A DNA stretch of 36,657 bases from Actinomycetota bacterium. GTDB taxonomy: Bacteria > Actinomycetota > Actinomycetes > Actinomycetales > Kineosporiaceae. Positions 8,050 to 32,823 of this stretch are shown here, in pieces. Below the pieces are notes generated by a model, which saw only the letters and a program-made list of their open reading frames with translations, searched no databases and was not told the DNA's origin. The stretch's first letter is position 1; each line of letters starts with the position of its first letter. The DNA lies in the NCBI GenBank assembly GCA_030837345.1, contig JAUPKQ010000122.1, positions 1 through 36,657 on the forward strand, written 5' to 3'. The position numbers and the translations under genes were made by a program.

Positions 8050-8129
8050 GGGCGCCTCGCTTGGATCGCCAACGTTGATGTTGCGTGGTCAGCATCATAG
8101 GCCGATTCCCCGGACATGGCGGTCGTATA

Positions 8130-8181
8130 CGTCCGGCGTATATCGGAATGCGGATCCGATCATGGCGATATACGCCGGACG
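8130..8181. promoter_or_regulatory. Perfect 16-bp inverted repeat in the divergent promoter region
   Basis: Arms CGTCCGGCGTATATCG (8130-8145) and its exact reverse complement (8166-8181) are separated by 20 bases that contain a further palindrome, CGGATCCG (8151-8158). The palindrome CGTATACG (8124-8131) overlaps the left edge. The region 8050-8265 separates the XRE gene (-) from the resolvase-like/sulfotransferase operon (+). This is the natural place for an operator controlling both directions, with the XRE protein as the likely binder (inference). A hairpin role is less likely, since the element is well upstream of both coding starts. Confidence 0.6.
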
Positions 8182-8265
8182 CCCACAAAGTCGCTGTAAC
8201 AGTTCACGACGACCACCCGCCCGGGGCGGCACGCACATGGTGACCCCGAGGCCTAGGGGGGACCG

Positions 8266-11999: not shown

Positions 12000-12704
12000 T
12001 CAGCGGTCGGGCTGGAAGCGGAAACCCATACCCGGCTCGGTCAGCAGGTACCGCGGCCGGGCCGGATCGGGTTCCAGCTTGCGGCGCAACTGGGCCATGT
12101 AGACGCGCAGGTTGGTCGGTTGGTCGACGTAGGCGGATCCCCACACCTCGACGAGCAGGAACCGCTGGGTGAGCAGCTTTCCCGGTTGTCTGAGGATCAC
12201 CTCCAGCAGGTGCCACTCGGTGGGGGTGAGCCGTATCGACTCGCTGCCGCCCTCCGCGTCCGGCCTGGTCACCTGGTGGGCGGCGAGATCGACGGTCACG
12301 TCCCCCAAACGGACGACGGGGTCGGCCGGGGAGGCGTCAGCGGCACCCGACCGCCGGGTGATGGCCCGCATCCGGGCCAGGAGCTCCTCCATGCCGAACG
12401 GCTTGGTGACGTAGTCGTCCGCACCGGCGTCCAGGGCCTCGACCTTGTCGGCGCTGCCGGTCCTGCCGGACAGGACGATGATCGGGACGGCGGTCCATCC
12501 GCGCAGCCCGTGGATCACCTCCACGCCGTCCCTGTCGGGCAGACCGAGGTCCAGAACGACGATGTCCGGGGGATGCACGGCAGCCAGTCTGAGCGCGTCC
12601 GCGCCGTTGGACGCGACGTGCACCTCGTAGTCGCGCGCGCGCAGGTTGATGCGCAGGGCCCGCAGCAGCTGAGGTTCGTCGTCGACGACGAGGACCCGCG
12701 TCAC
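12000..12704 (-). CDS. kdpE: OmpR-family response regulator KdpE
   Basis: 234 aa. The receiver domain (MTRVLVVDDEPQLLRAL, DIVVLDLGLPDRDG with the phospho-acceptor Asp, VLSGR, YVTKPF) is followed by a winged-helix DNA-binding domain (VDLAAHQVTR, LTPTEWHLLEVI, PTNLRVYMAQLRRKLEPDPARPRYLLTEPGMGFRF). The last motif is characteristic of KdpE. The start overlaps the kdpD stop by four bases (ATGA), so the pair is translationally coupled. No kdpFABC genes are in the window; a KimA-like potassium transporter is divergently encoded instead and is the probable target. Confidence 0.92.
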   Translation of the reverse strand: MTRVLVVDDEPQLLRALRINLRARDYEVHVASNGADALRLAAVHPPDIVVLDLGLPDRDGVEVIHGLRGWTAVPIIVLSGRTGSADKVEALDAGADDYVTKPFGMEELLARMRAITRRSGAADASPADPVVRLGDVTVDLAAHQVTRPDAEGGSESIRLTPTEWHLLEVILRQPGKLLTQRFLLVEVWGSAYVDQPTNLRVYMAQLRRKLEPDPARPRYLLTEPGMGFRFQPDR

Positions 12705-14227
12705 CTGTCTGGCTCCTTCTGATCGCCGCGCTCACGCCGGCCGGGTTCCGCGGCTTCCAGCGCTTCGTCCCAGGCCGCGGGCAGGGTGAGGAGCATGGTG
12801 AGGCCACCGCCGGGTGTGTCCTCGGCCTCAAGCGTGCCGTTCATCGCCTCGACCAACCCTCGGGAGAGGGCGAGGCCGAGCCCGAGGCCTGTCGTGTTGT
12901 CGGTGTCCCCGAGCCGCTGGAAGGGCACGAAGATGCGCTCCTTGTCCTGCTCCGGCACCCCACGACCCCGGTCGATCACACGGATCTCGACATGGTCCTC
13001 GACGGCGCCGGCCGTCACCAGAGACGTGTTGCCGGCCGGGGCGTGACGCAGGGCGTTGCCGATGACGTTGACGAGGGCACGGGCGAGCAGCGCGGCATCG
13101 GCCATCACCGGCGGAGTGTCCTCGGACAGCCGGACCTCGATCTGTCCCTCCTCCGCGGCGAGCTCGTCCAGAGCGGGCGGGATCAGATCCTCAAGCCAGA
13201 CGGGCTCGGTCGTCACGGTGAGCACACCGGCCTGCAACCGGGACAGGTCGAGCAGATCGGACACCAAATGGGTGAGCCGCCCGAGGCTCTCGTCGGCCGT
13301 CGCCAGGAGTTCCCGCCGTTCCTGCCCGGTCCAGTCGACGTCGCAGGCCTGCAGGCTGTTCACCGCAGCGCGAGCGGAGGCCAGCGGCGTCCGCAGGTCG
13401 TGGCCCAGGGCCGCCAGCAGAGCGTCACGCAACCGCTCGGTCGCCTCCAGACGGGTGGCGTGGGCCGCCGCCCGGGCGAGCCGATCCCGTTCGAGGAGGC
13501 CCTGTACCTGAGCGGCGAAAGCCCGCAGCATCATGCGGTCGCCGGTCGCCAGCAGGCGCCCGGACAGGGCGAGCACGAGATTGTCCCCCGCCGGCATGCT
13601 GACGTCCGCCTCCACCGGAACGGCGGGTGGTAGTACTCCCCGGGCGTCGACGACCCGCCAGGACGCCGGAGCGGCCTGACCCGGCGACGGCACGACCCGC
13701 TCCAGGAGACTGACCGACGTCATGCCGAAGGCCGATCGGACATGTTCGAGCAACGTGGGCAACGCCTCCTCGCCCCGCAGAACCCCACTGGCCATCGCCG
13801 CCAGCGACCGGGATTCCGCGGAGGCCCTCGACGCCCGGCAGGCGAGCGTCGCCGCTCGCTGTACGACGGTACTCACCAACCCCGCGACCAGGACGAACAC
13901 CACAAGGGTGATCACATTGTGCGGCTCGGACACCAGAAGGGTGTGCAGTGGCGGAATGAAGAAGTAGTTCAGCAACGTCGACCCGATCACCGCACTGATC
14001 AGGGCAGGCCACAGACCACCGACCATAGCGGTGACCACCACCGCGAGCAGCAGCACGAGGGAGTCTCCGGCGAGGCCCACCCAGGTGTCCGCGACCTTCA
14101 ACCCCACCGTGAGCGCCACGGGGAGGGACACGCCGACCACGAGACCGGTCACCCGCCGCCACCGAGGCAACCCGACCGCGAGCGGCGGGATGACCAGCCT
14201 GGGGCTTTCCATCCGGGTTGCCACCAC
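12701..14227 (-). CDS. kdpD: Short KdpD-type histidine kinase lacking the N-terminal sensor
   Basis: 508 aa, against about 850-900 for full-length KdpD. The N-terminal KdpD signature domain and USP domain are absent. The protein begins with the DUF4118-type membrane region (helices near residues 27-45, 56-82, 104-122; LNYFFIPPLHTL). A GAF-like region follows, then the H-box (LGHDLRTPLAS, H276), an N-box (NVIGNALRHAP) and G-boxes (DRGRGVPEQD; TGLGLGLAL). GTG at 14227 or 14224 is favoured by AAGGTGAG just upstream; ATG at 14212 is an alternative. Divergent from the potassium transporter, with direct repeats between. Sensing would have to rely on the membrane/GAF part or on partner proteins. Confidence 0.9.
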   Translation of the reverse strand: MVATRMESPRLVIPPLAVGLPRWRRVTGLVVGVSLPVALTVGLKVADTWVGLAGDSLVLLLAVVVTAMVGGLWPALISAVIGSTLLNYFFIPPLHTLLVSEPHNVITLVVFVLVAGLVSTVVQRAATLACRASRASAESRSLAAMASGVLRGEEALPTLLEHVRSAFGMTSVSLLERVVPSPGQAAPASWRVVDARGVLPPAVPVEADVSMPAGDNLVLALSGRLLATGDRMMLRAFAAQVQGLLERDRLARAAAHATRLEATERLRDALLAALGHDLRTPLASARAAVNSLQACDVDWTGQERRELLATADESLGRLTHLVSDLLDLSRLQAGVLTVTTEPVWLEDLIPPALDELAAEEGQIEVRLSEDTPPVMADAALLARALVNVIGNALRHAPAGNTSLVTAGAVEDHVEIRVIDRGRGVPEQDKERIFVPFQRLGDTDNTTGLGLGLALSRGLVEAMNGTLEAEDTPGGGLTMLLTLPAAWDEALEAAEPGRRERGDQKEPDR

Positions 14228-21103: not shown

Positions 21104-21205
21104 CAGGGCCACCCGGCGCCGGCCGCTGTCCCCCCGGATCAAGGCTGTGTACGCTGTCGCAAACACCGTGGCCCAGGTGTCGTTCGGTCACGATTGCGAG
21201 GCGGC

Positions 21206-22306
21206 GTGCGCGTACTACGAACACTGATGGTCATGGCATCGGCGAGTCTGACGGTCGTCGGTGTCCAGGCAGCCCCGGTCTTCGCCGCCGACGGTGGTGG
21301 TGGGGGCGGCGCGCCGACGGCGACGGTGTCGGCCGTCGCCGAGACCGTCGTCTTCCCCGGTGCGTCCGGTGATGTGGCGGACGATGTGGCGATCTGGCGG
21401 AATCCGGCTCAGCCGGACAAGAGCCTGATTCTCGCCGACAACAAGGCCGACGAGGGCGGTGTCGCCGTCCATCGCCTCGACGGCAGTCTCGCCCACTACG
21501 AGCGCACCGGGAGCATCGGCAACATCGACCTGCGCACGGTCGGCGTCGGTGGCCAGAACGTCGTGCTCGTCGGTGCCAACGACCGGTCCGCCGACACCTT
21601 GCGGTTCTGGACCCTCGATACCGAGAAGGGAACCCTGACGGGGACGGAGGCACGCTCGTTGAAGACCGTCACCTCCAACTACGGGTTCTGCCTCGGGCAC
21701 GACTCCGCCCACACCCACACGTACGCCTTCACGTCGTCCGAGTCCGGCACGATGGAGCAGTACGAGCTCTGGGTGAACTCGGGCCGGATCGACGCCGTCA
21801 AGCTGCGCTCCTTCGCCGTCGGTTCCCTGACCGAGGGCTGCGCGGTCGACGACGCCACGGGGTCGCTGTACGTGGGCGAGGAGGACGTCGGCATCTGGAG
21901 GTACGACGTCGACCCGACGACGGGCGACCGCCGGACGGCGATCGACAAGGTCGGCGGGAGGCTCACCGCCGACGTCGAGGGTCTCTCCACCGTCCGGGGC
22001 GCGGACGGCAAGGGCGTGCTGATCGCGTCCAGCCAGGGCGACTCGACGTTCTCGATGTACGGGCTGGACGACGACCGCTCCTTCGTCGGCCGGTTCCGGG
22101 TCGCGGGCGCCGGGGACGTCGACGACGTCACCGAGACCGACGGGCTCGCCGCCTTCCCGGGGAGTTTCGGTCCGTCGTACCCGAACGGCCTCCTCGTGGT
22201 CCACGACGCCTCGAACCAGAAACCCGGTGGCGGCGGCGAGGAGCCGAACTCCAACCTGAAGTTCGTGCGGCTCGACCAGGTGGTCAAGCTCTCCCCGTCA
22301 TCCTGA
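21206..22306 (+). CDS. Secreted beta-propeller (alkaline) phytase
   Basis: 366 aa from a GTG at 21206, chosen because it opens a Sec signal peptide (MRVLRTLMVMASASLTVVGVQAAPVFAAD) and has GCGAGG just upstream; TTG at 21194 and ATG at 21227 are alternatives. Beta-propeller phytase hallmarks follow: DDVAIWRNPAQPDKSLILADNK, GGVAVHRLDGS, NVVLVGANDRS, GFCLGHD, TEGCAVDDATGSLYVGEEDVGIWRYDV, DVEGLSTVRG, LIASSQGDSTFSMY, TDGLAAFPG and FPNGLLVVHD-like PNGLLVVHDASN. These acidic loops bind the calcium needed for phytate hydrolysis. Length is normal for the family. Its 3' end overlaps the convergent receiver gene by 23 bases. It would release phosphate from inositol phosphates outside the cell. Confidence 0.93.
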   Translation: MRVLRTLMVMASASLTVVGVQAAPVFAADGGGGGGAPTATVSAVAETVVFPGASGDVADDVAIWRNPAQPDKSLILADNKADEGGVAVHRLDGSLAHYERTGSIGNIDLRTVGVGGQNVVLVGANDRSADTLRFWTLDTEKGTLTGTEARSLKTVTSNYGFCLGHDSAHTHTYAFTSSESGTMEQYELWVNSGRIDAVKLRSFAVGSLTEGCAVDDATGSLYVGEEDVGIWRYDVDPTTGDRRTAIDKVGGRLTADVEGLSTVRGADGKGVLIASSQGDSTFSMYGLDDDRSFVGRFRVAGAGDVDDVTETDGLAAFPGSFGPSYPNGLLVVHDASNQKPGGGGEEPNSNLKFVRLDQVVKLSPSS

Positions 22307-22751
22307 GCGCGCACCGTTCGAGTTCACCGCGCAGGTCCGCGGGCACGACCGGTTTGGTGAGGAAACCGTCCATGCCCGCGGCCAGGCACCGGTCGCGGTC
22401 CGCGTCGACGGTCGAGGCGGACAGCGCGAGGATCACCGGCGGCCCCTCTCCGGAGCGCTCCCTGATGCGGCGAGTCGCCTCGACTCCGTCGATCCCGGGC
22501 ATCTGGAGATCCATGAGGACGACGTCGAACGGCTCCGCCGCGGCGGCCTCGACGGCGGACTCGCCGTCCTCGACGGCCACCGAGGCGATGCCGAACTTCT
22601 TCCGGAGCACCAGTTGGAGAATCTGGCGGTTGACCACGTTGTCCTCCACCACGAGCACCCGCAGCCGCTCCAGGGGAGCTTCTCCGGCCGCCTCGGGCTC
22701 CCCCTGCGGGGACCCCTCCCCCGCCGGAGGCCGGTTCGTCGATGTCACCAT
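22284..22751 (-). CDS. Stand-alone CheY-like response regulator
   Basis: 155 aa. A disordered N-terminus of about 28 residues precedes one receiver domain: LRVLVVEDNVVNRQIL (acidic pair), FDVVLMDLQMPGIDG (phospho-acceptor Asp in MDLQMP), LALSAS and GMDGFLTKPV (Lys). The EDNVVNRQ and MDLQMP forms are typical of receivers in hybrid kinases and phosphorelays, so it may take phosphate from an Hpt domain, for instance the Hpt protein encoded divergently at 25136. No output domain. Its ATG overlaps the stop of the upstream glycosidase-like gene by 7 bases, so the two are co-translated. Confidence 0.9.
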   Translation of the reverse strand: MVTSTNRPPAGEGSPQGEPEAAGEAPLERLRVLVVEDNVVNRQILQLVLRKKFGIASVAVEDGESAVEAAAAEPFDVVLMDLQMPGIDGVEATRRIRERSGEGPPVILALSASTVDADRDRCLAAGMDGFLTKPVVPADLRGELERCALRMTGRA

Positions 22752-24931
22752 GACCGTGTGGTCGGCACGGAACCGGTCCCGCTGGAGCCCGACGCGCGCC
22801 CGAGCGCGTCCACGAGCGGCTGGATCCCCGGCTTGCGCCGCTCACGGTAGGAGACGCGGTCCCAGGGCTGCCACTGGAGGGCACGGACCGCCTCGTTGAC
22901 GCCGTCGGCGTCCACCCGCACCCCGACGGCCGGGACCGCCCGGCCGGTGACCGTGGATCCGGTGACTACCACGGCCGTCCGGGACGACGGGTCCCCGATC
23001 CCGAGCAGCCCCCACGGCAGGCGGAGCTCGACACCGGCGTCGTCGCGACGCCAGGTGCTCCGGTTGTCGTACTCCGCGGAGGCGGGGTCCCAGACCCCCT
23101 CGCGGAGCGTCCCCACCGGCTGGTACTCCGCCCGGCGGGTGGTGCCTGTCGCCCGGTCGACGGTCTCGCCGCTGATCACCAGGATCTGCGGGCACCAGCC
23201 CTTGACGCACCGGGCCGCAAGCTCCGCGGGCACCGTCGTCGGGAACTCGAGACGGGCGAGGTCCTGGTCGCTCCGCACCCATACGGTGGCGGCGTCCGAC
23301 GCGACGTCGACCACGACGGCGACATCGCTCGCGCCGTCCGGAGCGGTCGACCCGGGCAGGGAGGCGGGCCCGCCGGGGATGACGTCCAGCCCGAGGCGCA
23401 CCGGCGTCCTCGACGTGCCGGCCCGGTGGAGAACGATCCGGACGTACGACGGGTCGACGGCGGCGGAGACCCGCACGCCCGCCGCCGTGCCGAGATCGGC
23501 CGGCATCGCGGAGGTCAGCGGGTCGGTCGCGAGGACGCCGAAGAACTGCTCGTTCGTCAGGACGTCGTGCCACAGCTGACGCCTGTCGGCGGGGATCTGC
23601 CGCGCCGTCGTGTTCCAGGTGCGCTTGAACCACTCGTCGGTCCACGAGAACAGGAACGCCCCCGCGACCTTCTCCTCCCGGATCACGTCGAGGAGGTCCG
23701 CGTCGATCCGTAGCATCTCGCTCTCCGAGTGCCCTCCCTGGTCCCGCTGGAGCGGAGCCGCGTGGGCGTTCCCCAGCGACGAGGGGACGCCGAACTCGCT
23801 CACGATCATCGGAACGGCACCGTGGTGGGCCCGCAGACGCCGGAGGTACCCGGCGTAGGGGTCCGTCCGGCCACCGCGGGAGACCTGGACCTCCGGCTCG
23901 TACCGCAGGAAGTCCGGGTAGTACGGATAGATGTGGTAGCTCGCGAACGTCCCGGCGGGCCACGCCGTCGTCGGCACGAGATGGTTCGCGTCGACCGGCA
24001 CGAGGTCCTCACCCTCCCGGGGCTCGGTGGGATGCCGCAGCGGGTCCAGGGTCGGCCAGTTGATGAACGCGAGCGGGGCCGCGTACCCGCGGGACGCGAG
24101 GGCCCCCGCGAGCTCCTCCATGCGGGCGCCGAGCCATCGCTCGGTGGGGGTCGCGTCCGGGGTGCTCCTGAAGTACGTCCCGACGACGGCGGGCGCGGCG
24201 GCGGACACGGCGGCGTGCGCGGCGTCCGTGCTGCGGACGGCGTAGGGATCGAGCTCCGCGCCGTAGATCCAGCCGGCGACCCACTCGGCGACGGACTCGC
24301 TCCACCGCCCGGACGCCCGGCCCGGGCGGGGGCTGCGGACGAGGTCACCGTGGACGGCGGCCACGGCCTCCAGGATCTCCCCCCGCATCGCCGTGGTCAC
24401 CGCGGGGTCGTAGAGGTCGCCCTTCTCCACATACGACTCGTCGGGGAGGTAGACACCCTGCACCAGGTACAGCGGTGCCGCCGCGTGGGCCCGGTTGTAC
24501 CGGGCGAGCTCGGAGTAGAAGGCCGGAGGATGAATGGTGTAGATCCGGATCGACCGGAATCCCAGCTCGGCGATCTCGGGGAACCACCGCCGGTAGTCGG
24601 CGGCCTCCAGCGCGAGTTCGCCGGGCTGGTGCCCGGGCACGGTCGCCCCGAGGTTCACCCCGGCCAGGAAATCCACCTCTCCGCCCGCCGTGTGCAGCCG
24701 GAACCGTCCGCCGTCGGCGTCGGCCAGCACGCTCAGGCCGACGGCCCGCCGGGGGGCGGGAGCCCACGACCGGTTGAGGGCCACCGGCCGGAACCCGGGG
24801 TCCGCCGGGGGCGCCGGGAACCCCGCCGGGAGCCCGGCGCCCCCGCCCTGGCTGCACGCCGCCGGGATCAGGGCCGCCACGGCGAGCAGGAGGCCGGTCC
24901 ACCGGCAGGTCGTCCTCACGACAGAAGTCAT
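22745..24931 (-). CDS. Exported glycosidase-like (beta/alpha)8 lipoprotein
   Basis: 728 aa. ATG at 24931 is chosen because it opens a signal sequence (RRT-rich N-region, LLLAVAALIPAAC) and has GGGAG 7 bases upstream; the frame is open far beyond but antisense to the divergent gene. The Cys after IPAA may be a lipobox, though Pro at -3 is atypical. Residues 60-410 look like a clan-A glycosidase barrel: DFLAGVNLGATVPG, GFRSIRIYTIHPPAFY, WIYGAELDP (candidate acid/base E226), YHIYPYYPDFL, MIVSEFGVPSS (candidate nucleophile E379) and AGAFLFSWTDEWFKRTWN. The C-terminal 250 residues are beta-rich, possibly carbohydrate-binding. It is first in an operon with the receiver gene and divergent from the Hpt/HEAT/GT2 operon, so it may trim or release the polymer made there. 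Confidence 0.82.
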   Translation of the reverse strand: MTSVVRTTCRWTGLLLAVAALIPAACSQGGGAGLPAGFPAPPADPGFRPVALNRSWAPAPRRAVGLSVLADADGGRFRLHTAGGEVDFLAGVNLGATVPGHQPGELALEAADYRRWFPEIAELGFRSIRIYTIHPPAFYSELARYNRAHAAAPLYLVQGVYLPDESYVEKGDLYDPAVTTAMRGEILEAVAAVHGDLVRSPRPGRASGRWSESVAEWVAGWIYGAELDPYAVRSTDAAHAAVSAAAPAVVGTYFRSTPDATPTERWLGARMEELAGALASRGYAAPLAFINWPTLDPLRHPTEPREGEDLVPVDANHLVPTTAWPAGTFASYHIYPYYPDFLRYEPEVQVSRGGRTDPYAGYLRRLRAHHGAVPMIVSEFGVPSSLGNAHAAPLQRDQGGHSESEMLRIDADLLDVIREEKVAGAFLFSWTDEWFKRTWNTTARQIPADRRQLWHDVLTNEQFFGVLATDPLTSAMPADLGTAAGVRVSAAVDPSYVRIVLHRAGTSRTPVRLGLDVIPGGPASLPGSTAPDGASDVAVVVDVASDAATVWVRSDQDLARLEFPTTVPAELAARCVKGWCPQILVISGETVDRATGTTRRAEYQPVGTLREGVWDPASAEYDNRSTWRRDDAGVELRLPWGLLGIGDPSSRTAVVVTGSTVTGRAVPAVGVRVDADGVNEAVRALQWQPWDRVSYRERRKPGIQPLVDALGRASGSSGTGSVPTTRSW

Positions 24932-24990
24932 CGGTCGCTCCCGCACCCCGCCTGAAGCCGTCCCCGCCCGGAGCCGATTGGTCTCTCCGG

Positions 24991-25024
24991 ACCTTTCAGT
25001 CGAGGAGGTCGAAGACCGAAAGGT
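24991..25024. promoter_or_regulatory. Hairpin-shaped element in the divergent promoter region, with FliA-like boxes
   Basis: ACCTTTC-a-GTC (24991-25001) pairs with GAC-c-GAAAGGT (25014-25024) around a 12-base loop. Within it, TTCA (24995-24998), 15 bases and GACCGAAA (25014-25021) resemble the FliA/WhiG consensus (CTCA/TAAA, N15, GCCGATAA) for the plus-strand operon at 25136. By symmetry the minus strand has TTCG, 15 bases and GACTGAAA, pointing at the glycosidase/receiver operon. Either a repressor operator or a bidirectional motility-sigma promoter would fit. Confidence 0.45.
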
Positions 25025-25135
25025 GTGAGGACAGGGTCCTCGGCCCGGTGGGAGGTGTCCGGTTTGGGCGTGCAACGCGACGGGACCGGTCCGGTCCGTC
25101 CGGGGTCCGGGCAGCCCCGGGACACAGGAACGGGC

Positions 25136-27121
25136 ATGGATGACGTGGCCCCTCCGGACGGCGGTCTCGGGGCGGCTCTCGCCGGGCTGTGGGTGGAGAA
25201 CCGGCCGGCGATCGAACAGCAACTCCTGCGGATCGAGGCGGCCGCGGGCGCGGCGCTCCGGGACGCCCTCACCCCCTCGCAGCAGCAGGAGGGGCGGGTG
25301 GCCGCGCACCAGCTCGCCGGGTCCCTCGGCTCGTTCGGATTCCACGAGGGCACCCGTGTCGCCCGTCAGCTGGAGGCCCTGCTGCGGCAGGCCGTCCCCG
25401 AGGCGCGGGCGCTCTCGGAGGGCGCGGTCGCCCTCCGGGAGCTCGTCCTGGAGCAGCCGCCGATCGAGGTGTCCGCCCTCGTCAAGGACGAGGACGAGGA
25501 GCCCGAGCACCGTCTGCTGATCGTCTCCGACGACCTCGCCTACGCGGACGACCTCGAACGCGAGGCACGGCTCCTCGGGCACCAGGTGTATTCGCTGCCC
25601 CACCCTCTGCCGAAGGTTCTCGAACGCGGCACGACCGCGGCGATCGTCGATCTGGGCCGGGGCGGGGGCGCGTTCCTGGACCGGGCCGAACGGGACGGGA
25701 TCGGCGTCCCGTTCTTCGCCATCACCGACGCCACGGATTTCGGCACCCGGTCGCGGCTGCTGAGGCTGAGGACGCTCGGCGTCTTCCGCCGGACGGACCA
25801 CACCCGTCACATCCTCCAGTTCGCGGTCGCCGCTCTGGAGGACGCCGAGCCAGCCGAGCACGTCACGGTCCTCGCCGTGGCACAGGACGCGGTGATGTGC
25901 GGGGCCATCGCCCAGGCGCTGTCCGACGAGAGAACCGAGGTCTCGATCGCGACCGACCTCGAATCATGCTGGAACGCCCTCCACGAGGTCCGCCCGTCCG
26001 TCGTCGTCACGCACTGGACGACGACGGGTCCGAAGGTCGCGCATCTCCTGCGCACGGACCCGCGGTGGTCGTCCCTCCCCCTGATCGGGGTCGCCGAATC
26101 CGAGTCCGTGCCGTCCCTCGAGTCGGCCGCCGAAGCGGGAGCGATCACCGTCCAGGCCCGGGACGGCGGTGTCCCCGGGCTGCGGGCCGGGGTGAGCGCC
26201 GTCCTGACCCAGGCCTCCCGCCTCACCCGGCTCTCCGAGTTCGATCCCTCGACGGGGTGCGACCGGTGGGAGGACGCCGAGCGGAGCATCGACCGCCTGC
26301 TGCGGATCGGGGAGCGGACCGCGCTCAACGTCGTCATCGCCCAGGTCGAGGTGCGCTCCGACCCCTCGGACGGTGTCGGGGCGAACAGCCTCCAGGACCT
26401 GCTGGTGCACCAGGTGGTCCACCACATCCGGCGTGCTCTCCGCCGGGAGGACGTCATCACCCGTAACGGTGACGGGCGGCTGACCCTCGCGCTCTACAAC
26501 TGTCCCGCCGACATCGCCGTCAAACGGCTCCTGGGAGTCCTGCACGCGGTGGAGATCTCCCGCGAACGGACGTTCCGGCCCCTGCACGTGCGCGCCGGGG
26601 TCGCCGTCCGGCCGAGGGACGGCGCCGACCTGCCGGCGCTGCTCCGCGCCTCGGAACGCGCCCTGAGCGCGACGACCCCCGGCCGTCCCGTCCTGGACGC
26701 CGAGACCTTCGAGGAGTCGCAGGCCCCGCAGGGCGACAAGGGCACTGTCGACGTCGTGATCGTCGAGGACGACCCCGCCGTCGCCTCGCTGATCAACCAC
26801 GCGCTCGGTCTGCGTCAGCTCACCTCCCTCTGGATCGCCGACGGCTCGGAGGCCGCGCTCCGGCTCTGTTCGGGCGAGGTGAATCCCCGGCTCGTCCTGC
26901 TCGACATCGGGCTTCCCGGCCTCGACGGATTCGGCGTGATGTCCCGCCTGAAGCAGGCGAGGGTGCTCGATACCGTCCCCGTGATCGTCCTCACCGCCCG
27001 GTACCAGGAGGCGGAGACGCTGCGTGCCTTCGAACTGGGCGCCACCGACCACATGACCAAACCGTTCAGCATCCCGGTGCTCCTCAACCGGATCGAACGC
27101 GTCCTCGGGCAACGGACGTGA
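25136..27121 (+). CDS. Hpt-REC-REC-GGDEF-like-REC signalling scaffold
   Basis: 661 aa. ATG at 25136 with AGGAA 5 bases upstream. Residues 10-100 are an Hpt domain (VAAHQLAGSLGSFGF, H58). Residues 125-245 are a receiver-like domain (RLLIVSDDLAYADDLE, AAIVDLGRG). Residues 250-370 are a second receiver fold in which the phospho-acceptor position is His (VVVTHW), so it is probably not phosphorylated. Residues 385-525 follow the GGDEF cyclase fold, but the signature reads NGDGR, so it is unlikely to make c-di-GMP. Residues 538-661 are an intact receiver (VVIVEDDPAV, VLLDIGLPGLDG with D590, TKPF). No DNA-binding domain. Its stop overlaps the HEAT-protein GTG (GTGA), and a GT2 follows, so it is best read as the regulator of polysaccharide synthesis. 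Confidence 0.85.
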   Translation: MDDVAPPDGGLGAALAGLWVENRPAIEQQLLRIEAAAGAALRDALTPSQQQEGRVAAHQLAGSLGSFGFHEGTRVARQLEALLRQAVPEARALSEGAVALRELVLEQPPIEVSALVKDEDEEPEHRLLIVSDDLAYADDLEREARLLGHQVYSLPHPLPKVLERGTTAAIVDLGRGGGAFLDRAERDGIGVPFFAITDATDFGTRSRLLRLRTLGVFRRTDHTRHILQFAVAALEDAEPAEHVTVLAVAQDAVMCGAIAQALSDERTEVSIATDLESCWNALHEVRPSVVVTHWTTTGPKVAHLLRTDPRWSSLPLIGVAESESVPSLESAAEAGAITVQARDGGVPGLRAGVSAVLTQASRLTRLSEFDPSTGCDRWEDAERSIDRLLRIGERTALNVVIAQVEVRSDPSDGVGANSLQDLLVHQVVHHIRRALRREDVITRNGDGRLTLALYNCPADIAVKRLLGVLHAVEISRERTFRPLHVRAGVAVRPRDGADLPALLRASERALSATTPGRPVLDAETFEESQAPQGDKGTVDVVIVEDDPAVASLINHALGLRQLTSLWIADGSEAALRLCSGEVNPRLVLLDIGLPGLDGFGVMSRLKQARVLDTVPVIVLTARYQEAETLRAFELGATDHMTKPFSIPVLLNRIERVLGQRT

Positions 27122-28191
27122 CCGCCTCCGGACTCGTCACCGTGATCGGCCAGGTGATGCTCGGGATCTACGGACTTCTGCTCCTGCTGCTGGTGGCCGG
27201 GGTGCTCCGGACGGCGCACCGGGCCCGGCGGGCCCGCGTGACGGACGAGGTGAGCCACGAGATCCTCGCGGCGCTGGCCGACCACGAGACGGCCCCGGAC
27301 GACCGGGCCGCCGCGGCCGCGCTGGCCCGGATCGCGGACACGGCGCGAACACTGCGCGGAACCGAGGTCCGCCTCACCCTGATGGCGGTGGCGACGGCGG
27401 TCGGGGGCGAGTCGCTCGCGGCGCTGCGCGACGTCGCCGACCGCCTGGGCCTGATCGCGCAGGCGGAGCGGTCGGCACGTCACCGGTCCTGGGTGGAACG
27501 CCTGCTGGCGGCGAGATTCCTCACCGCCTTGTCCGTCACCTCCGGGACGGTCCGGCTGCTGCTGCGCGACCCGCACTGCGCGGTCCGGGCCCAGGCTGCC
27601 GCCTGGGTGACCGTGAACGACTCCCCCGAGACGGTCGGCGTCCTCGGGACGCTTCTCGTCGACCCGGATCCGCGATGCCGGTTCGCCGCGAAGGACACCC
27701 TCGCCCGTCTCGGCACGCGCGCGAGCGCCCAGGTCGAGAGCCTGCTGCGCAGTCCCGACCCGATAGTGCGGCGGAGCGCCCTGGAGATCGCGGGCGCCGC
27801 CGGTGACCCCGTCTACCTGCCGGCGCTGCGGGAGATCGCCCTCACCGGCGAACCCGCGCACCAGGCGCTGGCGGCCACGGCCCTCGGGGCCACCGGGGAT
27901 CCCGAAGTCACCGGCGTCCTCCGGGACCTCCTCGGGCACCCGGACGCGACGGTCCGCCACCACACGGTGACGGCACTCGCGGCGACCGCGGACTGGCGGC
28001 ACGCGGCCGACATCGTGCCGCTCCTCCACGACAGGTCCCACACGGTCCGCAGGGCGGCGGGGATGGGGTTGCTCCGGCTCGGCGCACCGGGGCTGATCCT
28101 TTTGCGCGAGGCCGCGTCACGCGATTCCGAGGAGTCCCCGGTCGCGCAGCAGATTCTGCAGTATCACGACTTCGCCAGCGGAAGGGTCTGA
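27118..28191 (+). CDS. Membrane-anchored HEAT-repeat protein
   Basis: 357 aa from a GTG at 27118 that overlaps the upstream stop. One N-terminal helix (VIGQVMLGIYGLLLLLLVAGVL, residues 8-30) puts the remainder in the cytoplasm (RTAHRARRAR follows). Residues 120-357 are tandem HEAT/PBS-lyase-type repeats: LLRDPHCAVRAQAAAWVTV, LLVDPDPRCRFAAKDTLARLG, LLRSPDPIVRRSALEIAGAAG, LLGHPDATVRHHTVTALAA, LLHDRSHTVRRAAGMGLLRLG. Such repeats mediate protein-protein contacts. Position between the signalling scaffold and the glycosyltransferase, with overlaps on both sides (GTGA and TGATG), suggests an adaptor that links signal to synthase. Confidence 0.85.
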   Translation: MTASGLVTVIGQVMLGIYGLLLLLLVAGVLRTAHRARRARVTDEVSHEILAALADHETAPDDRAAAAALARIADTARTLRGTEVRLTLMAVATAVGGESLAALRDVADRLGLIAQAERSARHRSWVERLLAARFLTALSVTSGTVRLLLRDPHCAVRAQAAAWVTVNDSPETVGVLGTLLVDPDPRCRFAAKDTLARLGTRASAQVESLLRSPDPIVRRSALEIAGAAGDPVYLPALREIALTGEPAHQALAATALGATGDPEVTGVLRDLLGHPDATVRHHTVTALAATADWRHAADIVPLLHDRSHTVRRAAGMGLLRLGAPGLILLREAASRDSEESPVAQQILQYHDFASGRV

Positions 28192-29618
28192 TGTCCGACG
28201 TCGTCCTGAGGGCGTCGAGGTTCCTGTTCCTCGTCGGCAATGTGACAGTCCTCTTCTACTTCGCCCTCACCAGCACGTTCTACCTGTTCCTCATGATGTC
28301 GGCGGCCCTTGACCTGCGGCGCGCCTACCTCCGGGATCATGGCGAGCTGCTGGCCCGCTTCCTGTCCTCGGAGTTCCTTCCGACGATCACTGTGCTCGTC
28401 CCCGCCCACGACGAGGCGCCGACGATCGAGAACAGCGTCCGCTCGCTCCTCACCCTCAGCTACCCGCAGCTGGAGATCGTGGTCGTCGACGACGGCTCGG
28501 CCGACGCGACCCTCGACACCCTCGTCACCGCGTTCGAGCTGCGGCCGGTGCCGTTGCCCTTCGACGCGCTGATCCCCTCCACGCCCGTCGAGACGGTCTA
28601 CCGCTCCTACCGCCACCCGAACCTCCTCGTCGGCGCCAAGACGAACGGGGGGAAGGCCGATGCGCTCAACGCCGCCCTCTGCCTGGCGGGCGGCGACCTC
28701 GTCTGCGCCGTCGACGCCGACACGATCATCGACGTCGAGGCCCTCCAGCGGTTGGTCCTGCCGTTCATCGGGTCGGACGACGCGATCGCCTCCGGGGCGA
28801 CGATCCGGGTGGCCAACGGATGCCGGGTCCGTGACGGCAGGGTGATCGAGGATCGGCTGCCGCACTCCTTCCTCGCCGTCCTCCAGGCCGTCGAGTACCT
28901 CAGATGCTTCCTGTTCGGCCGGGTGGGGTGGAACCGGATCGGCGGGAACCTGGTGATCTCCGGCGCCTTCGGGCTGTTCCGGCGGGACGCTCTCGTCCAG
29001 GCCGGTGGGTACGCGAGGACGGTCGGCGAGGACGTCGAACTCGTCGTCCGCCTGCGCCGTCGCCGCCGGGAGCAGGGGCTGCCGGCCGGTGTCCACTTCG
29101 TCCCCGACCCCATCGCCTGGACCGAGGTGCCCGAGAACCTCCGCACCCTCGCCAGCCAGCGCGAACGGTGGCACCGGGGACTGACCGACACCCTCTGGCG
29201 CCACCGCACGATGATGTTCAACCCGCGGTACGGGGTGCTCGGCGTCTTCGTCTTCCCGGTGTTCCTCGGGGTGGAGTGGCTCGCCCCCGTCGCCGAGGCC
29301 GTCGGGATCCTCTCGCTCCCCGCCGGGCTCGCCCTGCACGCCGTCAACATCCCGTTCGCACTGACGCTCCTGCTGGTCTCCATCGGCTTCTCGGCCCTGC
29401 TGTCCACCCTCGCCGTCCTGCTGGAGGAGATCACCTACTCCCGCTACCGGCGCCGGCGCGACCGGGTGGTCCTCCTCGCCGGCGCGCTCGTCGAGAACCT
29501 CGGCTACCGGCAGCTCACCGTGTTCTGGCGTCTTCGGGGCATCGCCAACCAGCTGCGCGGCAAGACGCACTGGGGCACGATGCCCCGCCGGGGGTTCACC
29601 CCCGCCCGCCGGAGCTGA
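28191..29618 (+). CDS. Processive family-2 glycosyltransferase (exopolysaccharide synthase)
   Basis: 475 aa; ATG at 28191 shares its first base with the upstream stop (TGATG). An N-terminal helix (residues 12-38) is followed by the GT-A domain: ITVLVPAHDEAPTIENS, VVVDDGSAD (D100/D101), KTNGGKADALNAAL, AVDADTII (DXD, D175/D177), ISGAFGLFRRDAL, VGEDVELVVRLRR (E280/D281), SQRERWHRG (QXXRW motif, Q323-W327). The last motif marks processive synthases such as PgaC, hyaluronan and cellulose synthases. Three or four C-terminal helices (352-408, 426-436) would form the translocation pore. No PilZ domain. The polymer is unknown. Confidence 0.92.
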   Translation: MSDVVLRASRFLFLVGNVTVLFYFALTSTFYLFLMMSAALDLRRAYLRDHGELLARFLSSEFLPTITVLVPAHDEAPTIENSVRSLLTLSYPQLEIVVVDDGSADATLDTLVTAFELRPVPLPFDALIPSTPVETVYRSYRHPNLLVGAKTNGGKADALNAALCLAGGDLVCAVDADTIIDVEALQRLVLPFIGSDDAIASGATIRVANGCRVRDGRVIEDRLPHSFLAVLQAVEYLRCFLFGRVGWNRIGGNLVISGAFGLFRRDALVQAGGYARTVGEDVELVVRLRRRRREQGLPAGVHFVPDPIAWTEVPENLRTLASQRERWHRGLTDTLWRHRTMMFNPRYGVLGVFVFPVFLGVEWLAPVAEAVGILSLPAGLALHAVNIPFALTLLLVSIGFSALLSTLAVLLEEITYSRYRRRRDRVVLLAGALVENLGYRQLTVFWRLRGIANQLRGKTHWGTMPRRGFTPARRS

Positions 29619-29656: not shown

Positions 29657-31267
29657 TCAGACCCGGAAGTGCGCGACCATCTTCTCGAGGTCACGGGCCA
29701 TCTCGCTGAGCCGGACCACGGACTCACGGGACTGGGCGACGCTGTCACCGGCCACCTGCGAGGCGGAGGCGAGCCCGGCGATGTTGGCGGCGATCCCGCC
29801 CGATCCCTCGGCCGCCGCCGCGACGCTGACATTCATCTGGGCCGTGGTGGTGCTCTGCTCCTCGACCGCGCCGGCGATGCTCGCCTGGAACTCGTTGATC
29901 TGCTGGATGACCGCGCTGATACGGGCGATCGCGGCGACCACTCCCTCGGTGTCCGCCTGGATCGTCGCCACCTGACGGGCGATGTCCTCGGTGGCCCGGC
30001 CGGTCTCACCGGCCAGCTCCTTCACCTCACCGGCCACCACGGCGAAGCCCTTGCCGGACTCCCCCGCCCGGGCGGCCTCGATGGTGGCGTTCAGGGCGAG
30101 CAGATTGGTCTGTTCGGCGATCAAGGTGATCACCTTGACGACGTCCGCGATCTGCTCCGACGACTCCCCGAGCTTGGCGATCTGGGCGGTGGCGGCATCC
30201 GCGATCCCGACGGCGTGCTCGACGACCTTGACCGCTTCCTGCGCGCTCCGGGCGATCGCCCGGATCGACTCCCCGATCTCCTCCGACCCCTTCGCCACGA
30301 CGTTGACGCTGTTCGAGACCTGCCCGGCGGCGATCGACACGGCCTGGGCCTGCGCCGAGGTGTGCTGGGCGGACGCCGCGACCGAGTCCGAGGTCTCGGC
30401 GATCCCCTCGGCGGTGCCCGAGAGGGCACCGATCGACCTGGCGACCGACGCCACCACGGACCGCATGTCCTCCTGGGCCGCGTTCAGGGAGCGGGCCATC
30501 TCCCCGACCTCGTCCGCCGAGCGCACCTCCACGCCACGGGTGAGGTCACCGCTCGCCATCGCGTCCAGCACCGCCCGCACCGACAGCAGGGAGCGGATGA
30601 TGCTGTTGATCACGAACCAGGACACCACGCTGACGAGCAGGACGGTGAGCGCGAAGGTGACCCACTGGATCCGCTGTCCCGAAGCGCGGTCGGCGGCCGT
30701 CGCCTTCGCGCTCTCGGCCACGCTTTTCAGGAACTGGGCGCGCTCGTTCGCGATGACGGTGCTGACCAGGTAGTTGTCGACGTCGATCCGTGCCCACGAC
30801 TGCCGGGCCTGCGCCTGGTCGAGCGCGGCGCTGTCGACGTACCGGGTGACGGTCGTGACGTAGTCGTCGACGACCGTGCGGATCCGCCGCACCGACCGCG
30901 TCTCCCGCGGCGGGAGCGCGATGGCGGAGAGCTGCCGCACCAGGGTCGTCGCCTCCTGGACCCGTTGCTCCAGCCTGGCGGGCTGCGACCGGGGATCGTC
31001 GCGGATCACCGCCTGGAGCCCGTTCACCTTCAGGTCGCTCGCGACCCGGTCCAGTTGCAGCACCAGACCGGACGCCGCGTCGAGCCGTGACTGCGCGGCG
31101 TCGGCGTTCGCGGTGCCGCGGTTGTTCGCCGTGGCCACCCCCACCGAGATCAGCAGCGCGATCAGGCTGACGGCGACCAGGGCGCCGAGCTTGACCCGGA
31201 TCGACAGGTCCAGCAGCCACTGGAGCGCCGGACGCTTCCGGCCCGGGGACGACGTGGCGAGATCCAT
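29657..31267 (-). CDS. Methyl-accepting chemotaxis protein
   Basis: 536 aa. TM1 is at about 25-47 ([20 protein letters not shown]), followed by a four-helix-bundle sensor of about 150 residues, TM2 at 203-222 ([19 protein letters not shown]), HAMP to about 276 ([29 protein letters not shown]) and the long coiled-coil signalling domain. The hairpin tip is conserved ([38 protein letters not shown]). No C-terminal CheR/CheB pentapeptide is seen. It starts 27 bases after the binding-protein stop, so the two form an operon. No cheA, cheW, cheY or flagellar genes are in the window; they would be elsewhere. Presence implies motility or an equivalent surface behaviour. Confidence 0.93.
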
Positions 31268-31294: not shown

Positions 31295-32389
31295 TCAGCT
31301 CCGGATCTGCTCGGCGGAAAAGACCCCACCGTCGACGAGGATCCGCTGGTAGTTGGCCTTCGTGACGCTCACGGGAGCGAGCAGGAACGTCGGTACGACC
31401 TTGGCGCCGTTGTGGTACTGGGTCGTGTCGTTCACCTCGGGGGTCCCTCCGGTGAGCACGGAGTTGACCATCTGGACGGCGACCTTGGCCAGCTCCCGCA
31501 TGTCCTTGTCGATCGTGTGGCCCTGGATGCCCTTGGCGATGAGCTTCACCGAGTCGAGCTGGGCGTCCTGGCCGGTGATCGCCGGGTACGGCCGCGACGG
31601 CTTCCCGTAGCCCGCGTCGCCCAGCGCCTGAATGATGCCCCGGGCGAGCCCGTCGTTGGGGGACAGCACCGCGTCCACCCGCCGGCCGGCGTAGTGCGCG
31701 GTGAGGAGTTTCGCCATCCGGGCTCTGGCGTCCTCCCCTTTCCAGCCGGGGATCGCGACCTGGGAGAACGCCGTCTCCTTGCTGACGACGACCAGCTTCC
31801 CCGAGGCGAGGTACGGCCTCAGCCCGGCCATCGCACCCTTGAAGAAGTAGGTGGCGTTGTTGTCGTTCGGCGATCCGGCGAACAGCTCGATGGTGAACGG
31901 CCCTTTGCCGGCGGCCAGCCCCAGGGTGTCGATCAGGTACTCGGCCTGAAGGGTCCCGACCTTCGCGTTGTCGTACGCGGCGTAGTAGTCGACGTGCGCG
32001 CTGCCGCGGATCAGCCGGTCGAAGGAGATCACCGGAATGTCCTTGGCCCCGGCGGCGTCGAGCGGCGCGGCGAGAACCGTGCCGTCGACCGCCCCGATGA
32101 CGAGCGCCCGGGGGTTCTTCCCGATGATGCCCTCAAGCTGCGTCTTCTGGGTCTGGGCGTCGTTCTCCGCGTTGACGAGCTCGGGCCGGTAGCCGAGCAG
32201 GCGCAGCTGCTCGGCGATGATGACGCCGTCCTTCTCCCAGTGGTCGTCCTTCGTCGGCATCAGCACGCCGACGAGACCGCGGTCGACGTCGGGGAGATCC
32301 TCCAAGAGGGACGCACCGGAACAACCGGACAGCATCAGGACCCCCAAGACCATCACCCCGAGTGACCGGCTGACAGTTCTCGATCTCAC
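31295..32389 (-). CDS. Sugar-binding lipoprotein, periplasmic-binding-protein type (ChvE-like)
   Basis: 364 aa. GTG at 32389 is chosen because AGGGGAGG lies 6-7 bases upstream and it opens a lipoprotein signal (VSRSLGVMVLGVLMLSGC, lipobox LSGC). The mature part is a peripl_BP_4 fold: GVLMPTKDDHWEKDG, LVNAENDAQTQKTQLEGII, ALVIGAVDGTVLAAPLDAAGAKDIPVISFDRLI, YAAYDNAKVGTLQAEYLI, VDAVLSPNDGLARGIIQAL, ITGQDAQLDSVKLIAKG. This is closest to ChvE/multiple-sugar binding proteins. No permease or ATPase follows; instead the next gene is a chemoreceptor. It may present a sugar to that receptor rather than feed a transporter. Confidence 0.92.
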   Translation of the reverse strand: MRSRTVSRSLGVMVLGVLMLSGCSGASLLEDLPDVDRGLVGVLMPTKDDHWEKDGVIIAEQLRLLGYRPELVNAENDAQTQKTQLEGIIGKNPRALVIGAVDGTVLAAPLDAAGAKDIPVISFDRLIRGSAHVDYYAAYDNAKVGTLQAEYLIDTLGLAAGKGPFTIELFAGSPNDNNATYFFKGAMAGLRPYLASGKLVVVSKETAFSQVAIPGWKGEDARARMAKLLTAHYAGRRVDAVLSPNDGLARGIIQALGDAGYGKPSRPYPAITGQDAQLDSVKLIAKGIQGHTIDKDMRELAKVAVQMVNSVLTGGTPEVNDTTQYHNGAKVVPTFLLAPVSVTKANYQRILVDGGVFSAEQIRS

Positions 32390-32447
32390 GGTGGGCCTCC
32401 CCTGGCCTGGTGACAGCCCTCGCCCTCCAGTTCTCCTCATCCTCCTC

Positions 32448-32475
32448 ATATCGGAAAGTGACATCCCGGGCTGAA
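32448..32475 (-). promoter_or_regulatory. FliA/WhiG-like promoter of the binding-protein/chemoreceptor operon
   Basis: On the minus strand, TTCA (32475-32472), 16 bases and TCCGATAT (32455-32448) match the motility sigma consensus (CTCA/TAAA, N15-17, GCCGATAA) at 3 of 4 and 6 of 8 positions. The leader to the GTG at 32389 would be about 50 bases. A chemotaxis gene is an expected target for this sigma factor. Confidence 0.5.
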
Positions 32476-32619
32476 CCGTTCGACGGGAACCCCTCGGTGA
32501 GCGGCCGGTTCCCACGTCACCTGAACGGTCGGTCCCTGCACAGGTCCCGACATCCCAATTCGGGTCGGACACATACTCGGACCACGGGGAGTCACAACGA
32601 CGACAAGTCGGAGGAAGCG

Positions 32620-32823
32620 ATGTCGACAACACCTGAGCAGCTCCTGACGCCCGCCGAAGTCGCGGCGTTGTTCCGGGTCGACCCCAAGACGGTCACCCGC
32701 TGGGCGAACGCCGGCCGTCTGACCTCGGTACGGACCCTCGGTGGTCACCGCCGGTTCCGGGAGGCCGAGGTGCGGGCCCTGCTGGAGGGAGCCATCCCGG
32801 CCCAGCGGCCGTCCGCCGAGTGA
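32620..32823 (+). CDS. bldC: BldC-family MerR-like DNA-binding protein
   Basis: 67 aa, the usual size for BldC (68 in Streptomyces coelicolor). ATG at 32620 with GGAGG 5 bases upstream. LLTPAEVAALFRVDPKTVTRWANAGRLTSVRTLGGHRRFREAEVRALLEG covers the whole winged helix-turn-helix and matches BldC almost residue for residue. BldC binds DNA as head-to-tail oligomers and, in Streptomyces, delays sporulation. Divergent from the binding-protein/chemoreceptor operon over 230 bp, so that operon is a possible target. Confidence 0.95.
   Translation: MSTTPEQLLTPAEVAALFRVDPKTVTRWANAGRLTSVRTLGGHRRFREAEVRALLEGAIPAQRPSAE

Follow-up and report, generated by a model that had tools for sequence, protein, structure and literature searches.

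A conserved module of a HEAT-repeat protein and a family-2 glycosyltransferase with a probable role in regulated extracellular polysaccharide synthesis

A conserved gene module, in which a membrane-anchored HEAT-repeat protein is encoded directly before a processive-type family-2 glycosyltransferase (GT2), often in the company of a response regulator, is present in bacteria and haloarchaea. Five genes of the 36,657-nucleotide contig JAUPKQ010000122.1 (hereafter the window) from the Actinomycetota assembly GCA_030837345.1 (genome of 4.35 Mb, 97% complete, 269 contigs) represent it. The module is joined by a membrane-anchored protein resembling glycoside hydrolase family 157 (GH157) in Bacillota and Actinomycetota, or by a tetratricopeptide-repeat (TPR)/YaiO barrel in diderms. 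With a probability of roughly 0.63, it constitutes a synthase-dependent machine for an extracellular polysaccharide, in which the GT2 is switched by the response regulator through the membrane-anchored HEAT solenoid; the identity of the polymer and the direct protein contacts are inferred. An initial annotation of the window, which had proposed a polysaccharide system under phosphorelay control, is partly supported.

The HEAT-GT2 pair and its distribution

The HEAT protein of the window scores 90.3 bits with HEAT_2 (PF13646; cut-off 27.7). When it was used as bait among 58 relatives, 14 genomes gave matches, and receiver, HEAT, and GT2 genes stand in tandem at ten loci of other genomes. These ten HEAT-baited loci (within L027-L037) are excluded from the counts 61/66, 40/43, 26/26, and 23/36 given below, and are included in 31/44, 10/44, 16/44, and 21/84. 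A GT2 alignment used as bait gave 80 loci from named genomes among the matches listed, which split into 45 high-scoring loci (at least 384 bits) and 35 low-scoring loci (209.7 bits or less), the latter serving as control GT2s. In addition, the GT2 was found in 49 of 296 Actinomycetota genomes (E up to 1e-40), and 29 of these loci were read.

The GT2-baited set comprises 74 loci, for 66 of which an upstream gene or open reading frame (ORF) was obtained for Pfam analysis. HEAT families lie directly upstream of the GT2 in 61 of these 66 (41/44 and 20/22), and the survey of the pair that the initial annotation had proposed is thereby favourable. The first 44 upstream genes are complete, lie on the same strand, and encode 250-450 aa, with L083 added, and 41 of them match HEAT_2. 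For the other 30 loci, the upstream gene was represented by the longest ORF on the same strand with its end close to the GT2; 22 were obtained and 20 match HEAT. The two non-HEAT cases among the 22 should be L080, where HEAT lies inside the GT2 ORF and the regulator was taken instead, and L069, represented by a 104-aa ORF. Eight of the 74 loci have no tested upstream gene: four are contig ends with 0-273 bases upstream (L049, L120, L125, and L146), three are fusions (L065, L067, and L128), and the Nitrospirota locus L043 is a true miss with no HEAT upstream of its GT2. For comparison, 32 genes preceding low-scoring GT2s were scanned with Pfam, and within the best 25 of 63 families none of HEAT type occurs in two or more of them, which leaves room for a single weaker HEAT match such as that seen by script in L090. 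These 32 genes come from 33 listed, on either strand; L091, at a contig end, was left out and L089 has none.

A script with home-made models gives the same contrast. For loci with at least 1.2 kb upstream, HEAT precedes the GT2 in 40/43 named-genome and 26/26 Actinomycetota GT2-baited loci versus 2/35 low-scoring ones (Fisher P 3e-21), and the two low-scoring cases are L090 and L084, the latter a true member that is truncated. The home-made HEAT and YaiO models were partly trained on the loci they scored, and Pfam and NCBIfam serve as independent checks. Chance co-location of the genes is rejected on the strength of the surveys baited with GT2, the contrast with control GT2s, and the glycosidase co-occurrence described below. 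In a tree of 118 GT2s, the high-scoring set requires two changes, not one. As a separate observation, 5 of the 32 genes that precede low-scoring GT2s (L085-L119) contain TackOD1, which in L085 is accompanied by a receiver match; another GT2 clade perhaps has a receiver-linked adaptor of its own.

Gene fusions also link the two proteins. HEAT (HEAT_2, 103 bits) and GT2 share a single ORF in L128, the one clear fusion. In L065, L067, and L080, about 480 residues precede the GT2 in frame and score 16.0, 21.4, and 24.3 bits with HEAT_2, under its cut-off, and these are probably HEAT-GT2 fusions as well. The structure model of the L065 ORF (pLDDT 82.3, pTM 0.71) consists of a long N-terminal helix, an alpha solenoid, more long helices, and the glycosyltransferase domain, and as a model it supports a HEAT-like region. 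Long C-terminal helices are also predicted in its GT2.

The GT2 itself has the QXXRW motif that the initial annotation had reported (Q323-R324-x-R326-W327), and these four residues and D175/D177 are invariant in a nine-sequence alignment of the window protein and eight relatives. Its nearest NCBIfam model is PgaC_IcaA (TIGR03937), at 113.6 bits versus a cut-off of 422.3. Its identification as PgaC is rejected at this score, as are those as an XrtG-associated transferase (92.4 versus 363.95) and as NodC (55.7 versus 550). A Pfam scan of the GT2 at E 0.01 detects no MshEN and, as the initial annotation had stated, no PilZ. The nearest relative from a named genome belongs to Patulibacter, which agrees with the assignment of the window genome to Actinomycetota, as do its five WhiB genes, a family detected in Corynebacterium alone among 14 control genomes. 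The GT2 query finds three further weak matches in its own genome (best E 8.7e-9). A 34% identical GT2 is also encoded at 6808-8196 of the phage record MT836222.1, an unannotated 11.8-kb faecal 'Bacteriophage sp.' that may be a bacterial fragment.

The high-scoring GT2s are distributed over Bacillota (17), Bacteroidota (11), Pseudomonadota (7), Myxococcota (3), and Actinomycetota (2 from named genomes plus 39 loci from other genomes of the phylum), with one each in Balneolota, Fidelibacterota, Nitrospirota, Elusimicrobiota, and Mycoplasmatota. HEAT accompanies them in every phylum except at the Nitrospirota locus, and the pair is present in nine bacterial phyla, the Mycoplasmatota case being a fusion with a sub-threshold HEAT match. 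RefSeq plasmid annotation, an independent source of which 7 of 14 records were examined, extends the module to Deinococcus and three haloarchaeal genera. The order response regulator, HEAT-repeat protein, GT2 is annotated in Haloarcula and Salinirubellus, and Halosolutus differs from them by a single additional small gene, its cassette being succeeded by genes for a nucleotidyltransferase and GlmS. In Mesorhizobium the order is response regulator, YaiO, HEAT, GT2, and Hpt; Erythrobacter has response regulator, TPR, HEAT, and GT2; and Deinococcus has TPR, HEAT, and GT2 with no regulator. In Emticicia (L181), response regulator, unnamed protein, and GT2 are followed by YaiO and a lipoteichoic acid (LTA)-synthase-family gene, and HEAT is not annotated.

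Accessory proteins and the polymer

The 728-aa exported protein of the window has no Pfam or NCBIfam match, and the best hit of its sequence in PDB has E 0.27. Its AlphaFold2 (AF2) model (pLDDT 82.8, pTM 0.85) is a TIM barrel whose nearest solved fold is GH157, namely LaGH157 (9g4n/9fz9/9g5g), with Foldseek E 1e-12, Z 29-33, root-mean-square deviation 2.4-2.6 over about 320 residues, and 15% identity over the aligned part. The extra C-terminal beta-rich part and the N-terminal anchor differentiate it from GH157. By eye, E226 and E379 are candidate catalytic residues. Glu at 226 is kept in nearly all alignment rows that span it, and the Glu aligned with E379 is absent in the gut clostridial homologues L072, L075, and L111 (both by eye). 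Judged from these sequences, some gut homologues may be inactive as hydrolases and possibly bind rather than cleave. The protein had been annotated as a glycosidase lipoprotein; the exported, GH157-like barrel stands, and the lipoprotein label is weak, as the N-terminal Cys is preceded by PAA (by eye), an atypical lipobox, and homologues have a hydrophobic N-terminal stretch with no conserved Cys.

Homologues of this protein adjoin the HEAT-GT2 pair in Bacillota and Actinomycetota. They occur (E up to 1e-20) in 20 of the 296 Actinomycetota genomes, all of which are GT2-positive (hypergeometric P 3e-17, own genome left out), and in 15 genomes they share a contig with the GT2 at a distance of about 5 kb or less, whereas in 5 they lie elsewhere. 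Since only 20 of the 49 GT2-positive genomes have it, the glycosidase is an optional rather than an obligatory partner. At L057 (1594-6865), two glycosidase homologues stand in tandem ahead of HEAT-GT2, the second more diverged.

Diderm loci have a TPR/outer-membrane barrel within the cassette, and 8 of 9 candidates match the NCBIfam YaiO model TIGR04390; weak matches to the PgaA TPR region are seen in several. This criterion does not apply to Actinomycetota. By script, the glycosidase is present in 21 of 84 loci and the YaiO barrel in 21 of 84, and no locus has both within the limit of 6 kb; in many of these loci the flanks extend over 1.5 kb only. Among the 44 loci with 3 kb on both sides, to which the neighbour counts below also refer (36 without the HEAT-baited loci; 28 controls), the glycosidase is found in 12 and YaiO in 18. 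The myxococcotal L069 has a YaiO-type match and a partial glycosidase ORF about 6.9 kb away, beyond the 6-kb limit. The home-made YaiO model can cross-react with TPR, as L058 has TPR and no NCBIfam YaiO, and five low-scoring loci match it too. The barrel of diderm cassettes fits the export of a polymer.

The hints to the polymer itself disagree. PgaC/IcaA as the nearest GT2 model and the GlmS neighbour in Halosolutus point to an amino sugar, GH157 was solved with laminari-oligosaccharides and points to a beta-1,3-glucan, and the UDP-sugar dehydrogenase that follows in Brevibacillus L064 points to a uronic acid; no polymer identity is claimed. In Bacteroidota, a sulfatase-fold (LTA-synthase/MdoB-like) domain is fused to the GT2 in L060, is adjacent in L044, and lies two genes on in Emticicia, which suggests phosphoglycerol decoration of the glycan.

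Receivers, cyclic di-GMP, and control of the synthase

The large regulator of the window contains an Hpt domain (PF01627, E 5.7e-7) and a C-terminal receiver (E 1.5e-25) with D, D, D, T, and K at the expected columns. The phosphotransfer histidine H58, proposed previously, is correct when the ATG at 25136 is the start, and lies within AAHQLAG. The short receiver has its phosphoacceptor Asp, Ser, and Lys at the expected columns, and its membership in the module is uncertain. A receiver is nearby in 31/44 loci, and in 23/36 without the HEAT-baited loci versus 4/28 controls (P 9e-5); in 26/44 and 18/36, respectively, it is found upstream in the same orientation. Histidine kinases are nearby in 16/44 loci versus 4/28 controls, and the phosphoacceptor Asp is kept in most cassette receivers. 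Three alphaproteobacterial loci (Caulobacteraceae L045, Parvibaculum L059, and Mesorhizobium) encode Hpt in a gene of its own next to the cassette genes. In L027, receivers and GGDEF follow one another as in the window regulator, and the N-terminus looks Hpt-like by eye. The window's large regulator represents a lineage variant of the cassette regulator gene.

In the proposed mechanism, the GT2 would polymerise a sugar nucleotide, possibly UDP-N-acetylhexosamine (UDP-HexNAc), and extrude the chain. A histidine kinase would pass phosphate to Hpt H58 and on to the receiver of the large regulator, and the phosphorylated receiver would dock on the HEAT solenoid. Placed beside the GT2 at the membrane, the solenoid would then switch polymerisation after translation, the role that PilZ plays for cyclic di-GMP (c-di-GMP) in cellulose synthase. 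The anchored glycosidase may trim, transfer, or release the chain at the surface, and in diderms the barrel would export it. A precedent is the haloarchaeal HEAT_PBS protein, which, with two other proteins, is reported as a partner of CheY, CheD, CheC2, and Fla proteins and is required for motor switching according to the part of the source seen (PMC2666748). Receiver-GT2 fusions are likewise described for Methanobacteriaceae in the part seen of PMC5847659. Taken with the HEAT-GT2 fusions, these precedents make receiver, HEAT, and GT2 the most economical signal path; signalling from HEAT to GT2 is inferred from synteny, fusions, and precedent.

Several observations weigh against this interpretation. 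No receiver is nearby in 13 of the 44 loci, and in the receivers of L065, L066, and L080 Glu replaces the phosphoacceptor Asp, as if they were locked in a phosphorylated-like state. The sole histidine kinase among 20 Pfam-scanned window proteins (12701-14227) is paired with its own regulator. The L065 fusion model, with its pTM of 0.71, fixes no HEAT-GT2 interface; 29 of the 49 GT2-positive Actinomycetota genomes have no glycosidase match; and GGDEF/EAL genes lie near 10/44 loci versus 1/28 controls. Given these GGDEF/EAL genes and the cases described next, the claim of the initial annotation that control is by phosphorelay rather than by c-di-GMP is too strong, and its exclusion of c-di-GMP fails in general.

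Its statement that the window regulator has no intact GGDEF is correct: the domain is sub-threshold (22.1 bits versus the Pfam cut-off of 23.8), and its active site reads GDGRL, which is not that of an active diguanylate cyclase. Even so, a synthase controlled chiefly by c-di-GMP through the degenerate GGDEF, HEAT, or GT2, with the receiver only tuning that branch, has to be weighed. The I-site motif RxxD (RRED), through which a degenerate GGDEF may bind c-di-GMP, is retained five residues ahead of the dead site at the right spacing; by eye, it is also kept in L028 but not in L027 and L055. Jeotgalibacillus L055 combines Hpt (at cut-off), receiver, GGDEF with intact GGEEF, and receiver in one protein. 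Four gut clostridial loci with no receiver nearby (L070, L072, L075, and L079) have an EAL neighbour, three of them a GGDEF match as well, and Pfam finds an EAL and/or GGDEF neighbour in 5/5 loci picked for looking so (these four and one from Actinomycetota). NfrB, moreover, is a c-di-GMP-controlled GT2 in the portion of PMC8669469 seen. Against such control, 25 of the 31 receiver-bearing loci (25/44 overall) have no GGDEF/EAL nearby, and haloarchaeal members exist although archaea are reported to lack regulators with GGDEF/EAL outputs in the part seen of PMC5847659. We regard c-di-GMP as the chief control as unlikely.

The greater constancy of HEAT (61/66 loci) than of the receiver (31/44) would also fit a structural or assembly subunit that serves stability, localisation, or exporter coupling, with the receiver acting elsewhere or indirectly. 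Fusions link HEAT to the GT2, and no examined ORF has a receiver plus a HEAT match. However, HEAT comes after a receiver gene in phyla that are unrelated and also in archaea, and the haloarchaeal precedent is of a HEAT protein acting next to CheY (PMC2666748, seen in part). A purely structural HEAT protein is unlikely, though slightly less so than chief control by c-di-GMP. More doubtful than either is a GT2 whose product is a glycolipid of the membrane or a short glucan of the periplasm instead of an exported polymer. The LTA-synthase/MdoB-like domains of L060, L044, and Emticicia favour such a product, whereas QXXRW, the diderm TPR/YaiO barrel, and PgaC_IcaA as the nearest family model speak for the exported chain. 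The module itself is real and widely conserved, its components are those of synthase-dependent polysaccharide production, and phosphorylation acting through the HEAT adaptor is the likeliest mode of control.

Gene layout and relation to known systems

The arrangement of the five genes in two divergent operons is confirmed in the sequence (Table 1), and Pfam recognises the receiver, Hpt, receiver, HEAT, and GT2 regions. Third-position GC is 0.88-0.95 across the frames of all five. The junctions GTGA and TGATG of the plus operon and the 7-bp overlap of the minus operon, where the receiver gene overlaps the 3' end of the TIM-barrel gene (ATG at 24931), are exactly as annotated. The co-occurrence of the five genes elsewhere, named by the initial annotation as the test of its proposal, holds for GT2, HEAT, receiver, and glycosidase homologues.

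Table 1. Features of the module in the window
Feature	Position	Strand	Basis and remarks
Stand-alone receiver, 155 aa	22284..22751	-	PF00072 E 1.3e-26; module membership uncertain
Exported, membrane-anchored clan GH-A-like TIM-barrel protein, 728 aa, C-terminal beta-rich part	22745..24931	-	AF2 model, Foldseek
Divergent intergenic region, presumed shared promoter region	24932..25135	.	Position only
Hpt - degenerate receiver-like - degenerate GGDEF - intact receiver protein	25136..27121	+	Pfam, residue check
HEAT-repeat protein, one N-terminal transmembrane stretch (by eye)	27118..28191	+	PF13646 E 9.9e-26
Processive-type family-2 glycosyltransferase, 475 aa, DxD, QXXRW, hydrophobic C-terminal half	28191..29618	+	PF13641 E 1.4e-21

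Other genes surround the module. A phytase-family protein (PF02333, E 1.3e-66; 21194-22306, plus strand) converges on the short receiver gene with a 23-bp overlap. Downstream of and convergent with the GT2 are a chemoreceptor (HAMP and MCPsignal; 29657-31267, minus strand) and a periplasmic sugar-binding protein (Peripla_BP_4; 31295-32632, minus strand). An OmpR-type regulator and a DUF4118 (KdpD-like) histidine kinase occupy 12000-14227 (minus strand), adjoined by an opposite-strand ORF with an amino-acid permease domain. An 803-aa protein at 1695-4106 (minus strand) combines a ricin-type lectin domain with a weak match to the GH141 insertion domain.

The best-known synthase-dependent systems, those of cellulose, poly-N-acetylglucosamine (PNAG), Pel, and alginate, are gated by c-di-GMP. 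The PNAG systems (PgaABCD/IcaADBC) share with the module a processive GT2 and, in diderms, a TPR/beta-barrel protein. In contrast, the module has HEAT and a receiver, its GT2 stays far below the PgaC_IcaA cut-off, and the PgaD/IcaD and deacetylase partners of those systems are not seen in the module loci looked at. Cellulose synthase BcsA/B/C likewise has a GT2 with QXXRW and a TPR-barrel exporter, whereas the GT2 of the module is short, has no PilZ in the Pfam scan, and is accompanied by a separate HEAT protein. Bacillus subtilis YdaJKLMN, which brings together a degenerate GGDEF protein, a GT2, and a glycosidase, resembles the cassette in this but is not known to include HEAT or a receiver.

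In NfrB-NfrA-YbcH, the system of the phage N4 receptor glycan, a GT2 is combined with a TPR/barrel outer-membrane protein and control is exerted at the synthase; NfrB has a C-terminal MshEN c-di-GMP domain, unlike the window GT2, which has no MshEN match and a separate HEAT protein and receiver (PMC8669469, seen in part). Methanobacteriaceae MTH_548 resembles the module in that a receiver is physically linked to a BcsA-like PF13641 GT2, but HEAT is not mentioned in the part of PMC5847659 seen. The haloarchaeal OE2401F (HEAT_PBS) is similar as a HEAT protein between chemotaxis proteins and a membrane machine, and differs in acting on flagellar switching (PMC2666748, in part). Both are likened to the module by their published description. 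The EpsE-GT2 stalk cluster differs from the module as far as the seen part of PMC8250860 goes. A description of the module was not found in open-licence literature on HEAT with GT2, receiver, YaiO, and exopolysaccharide, covered mostly as titles and abstract starts, and it was not recognised in the parts seen of PMC10434189, PMC12419801, and PMC11893276. Going by sequence, the module would work like the c-di-GMP-gated synthases and falls outside PgaC, PilZ-type cellulose synthase, and NfrB.

It is about an even chance that the module represents a previously unnamed, cross-domain class of synthases on which two-component phosphorelays act directly and post-translationally through a membrane-anchored HEAT solenoid, with a new GH157-like family of surface hydrolases added in monoderms and a YaiO barrel in diderms. 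According to an archaeal census, in the part of the source seen, most receiver-only regulators stand in no conserved neighbourhood (PMC5847659). If the proposed signal path is true, a partner would be found for some of the stand-alone receivers without known targets, and a phosphorylation-based counterpart of c-di-GMP/PilZ control would be added to the known ways of gating a synthase. Many organisms are predicted from the module to make a polymer, and its exported hydrolase-like proteins add a family that has no classification so far.

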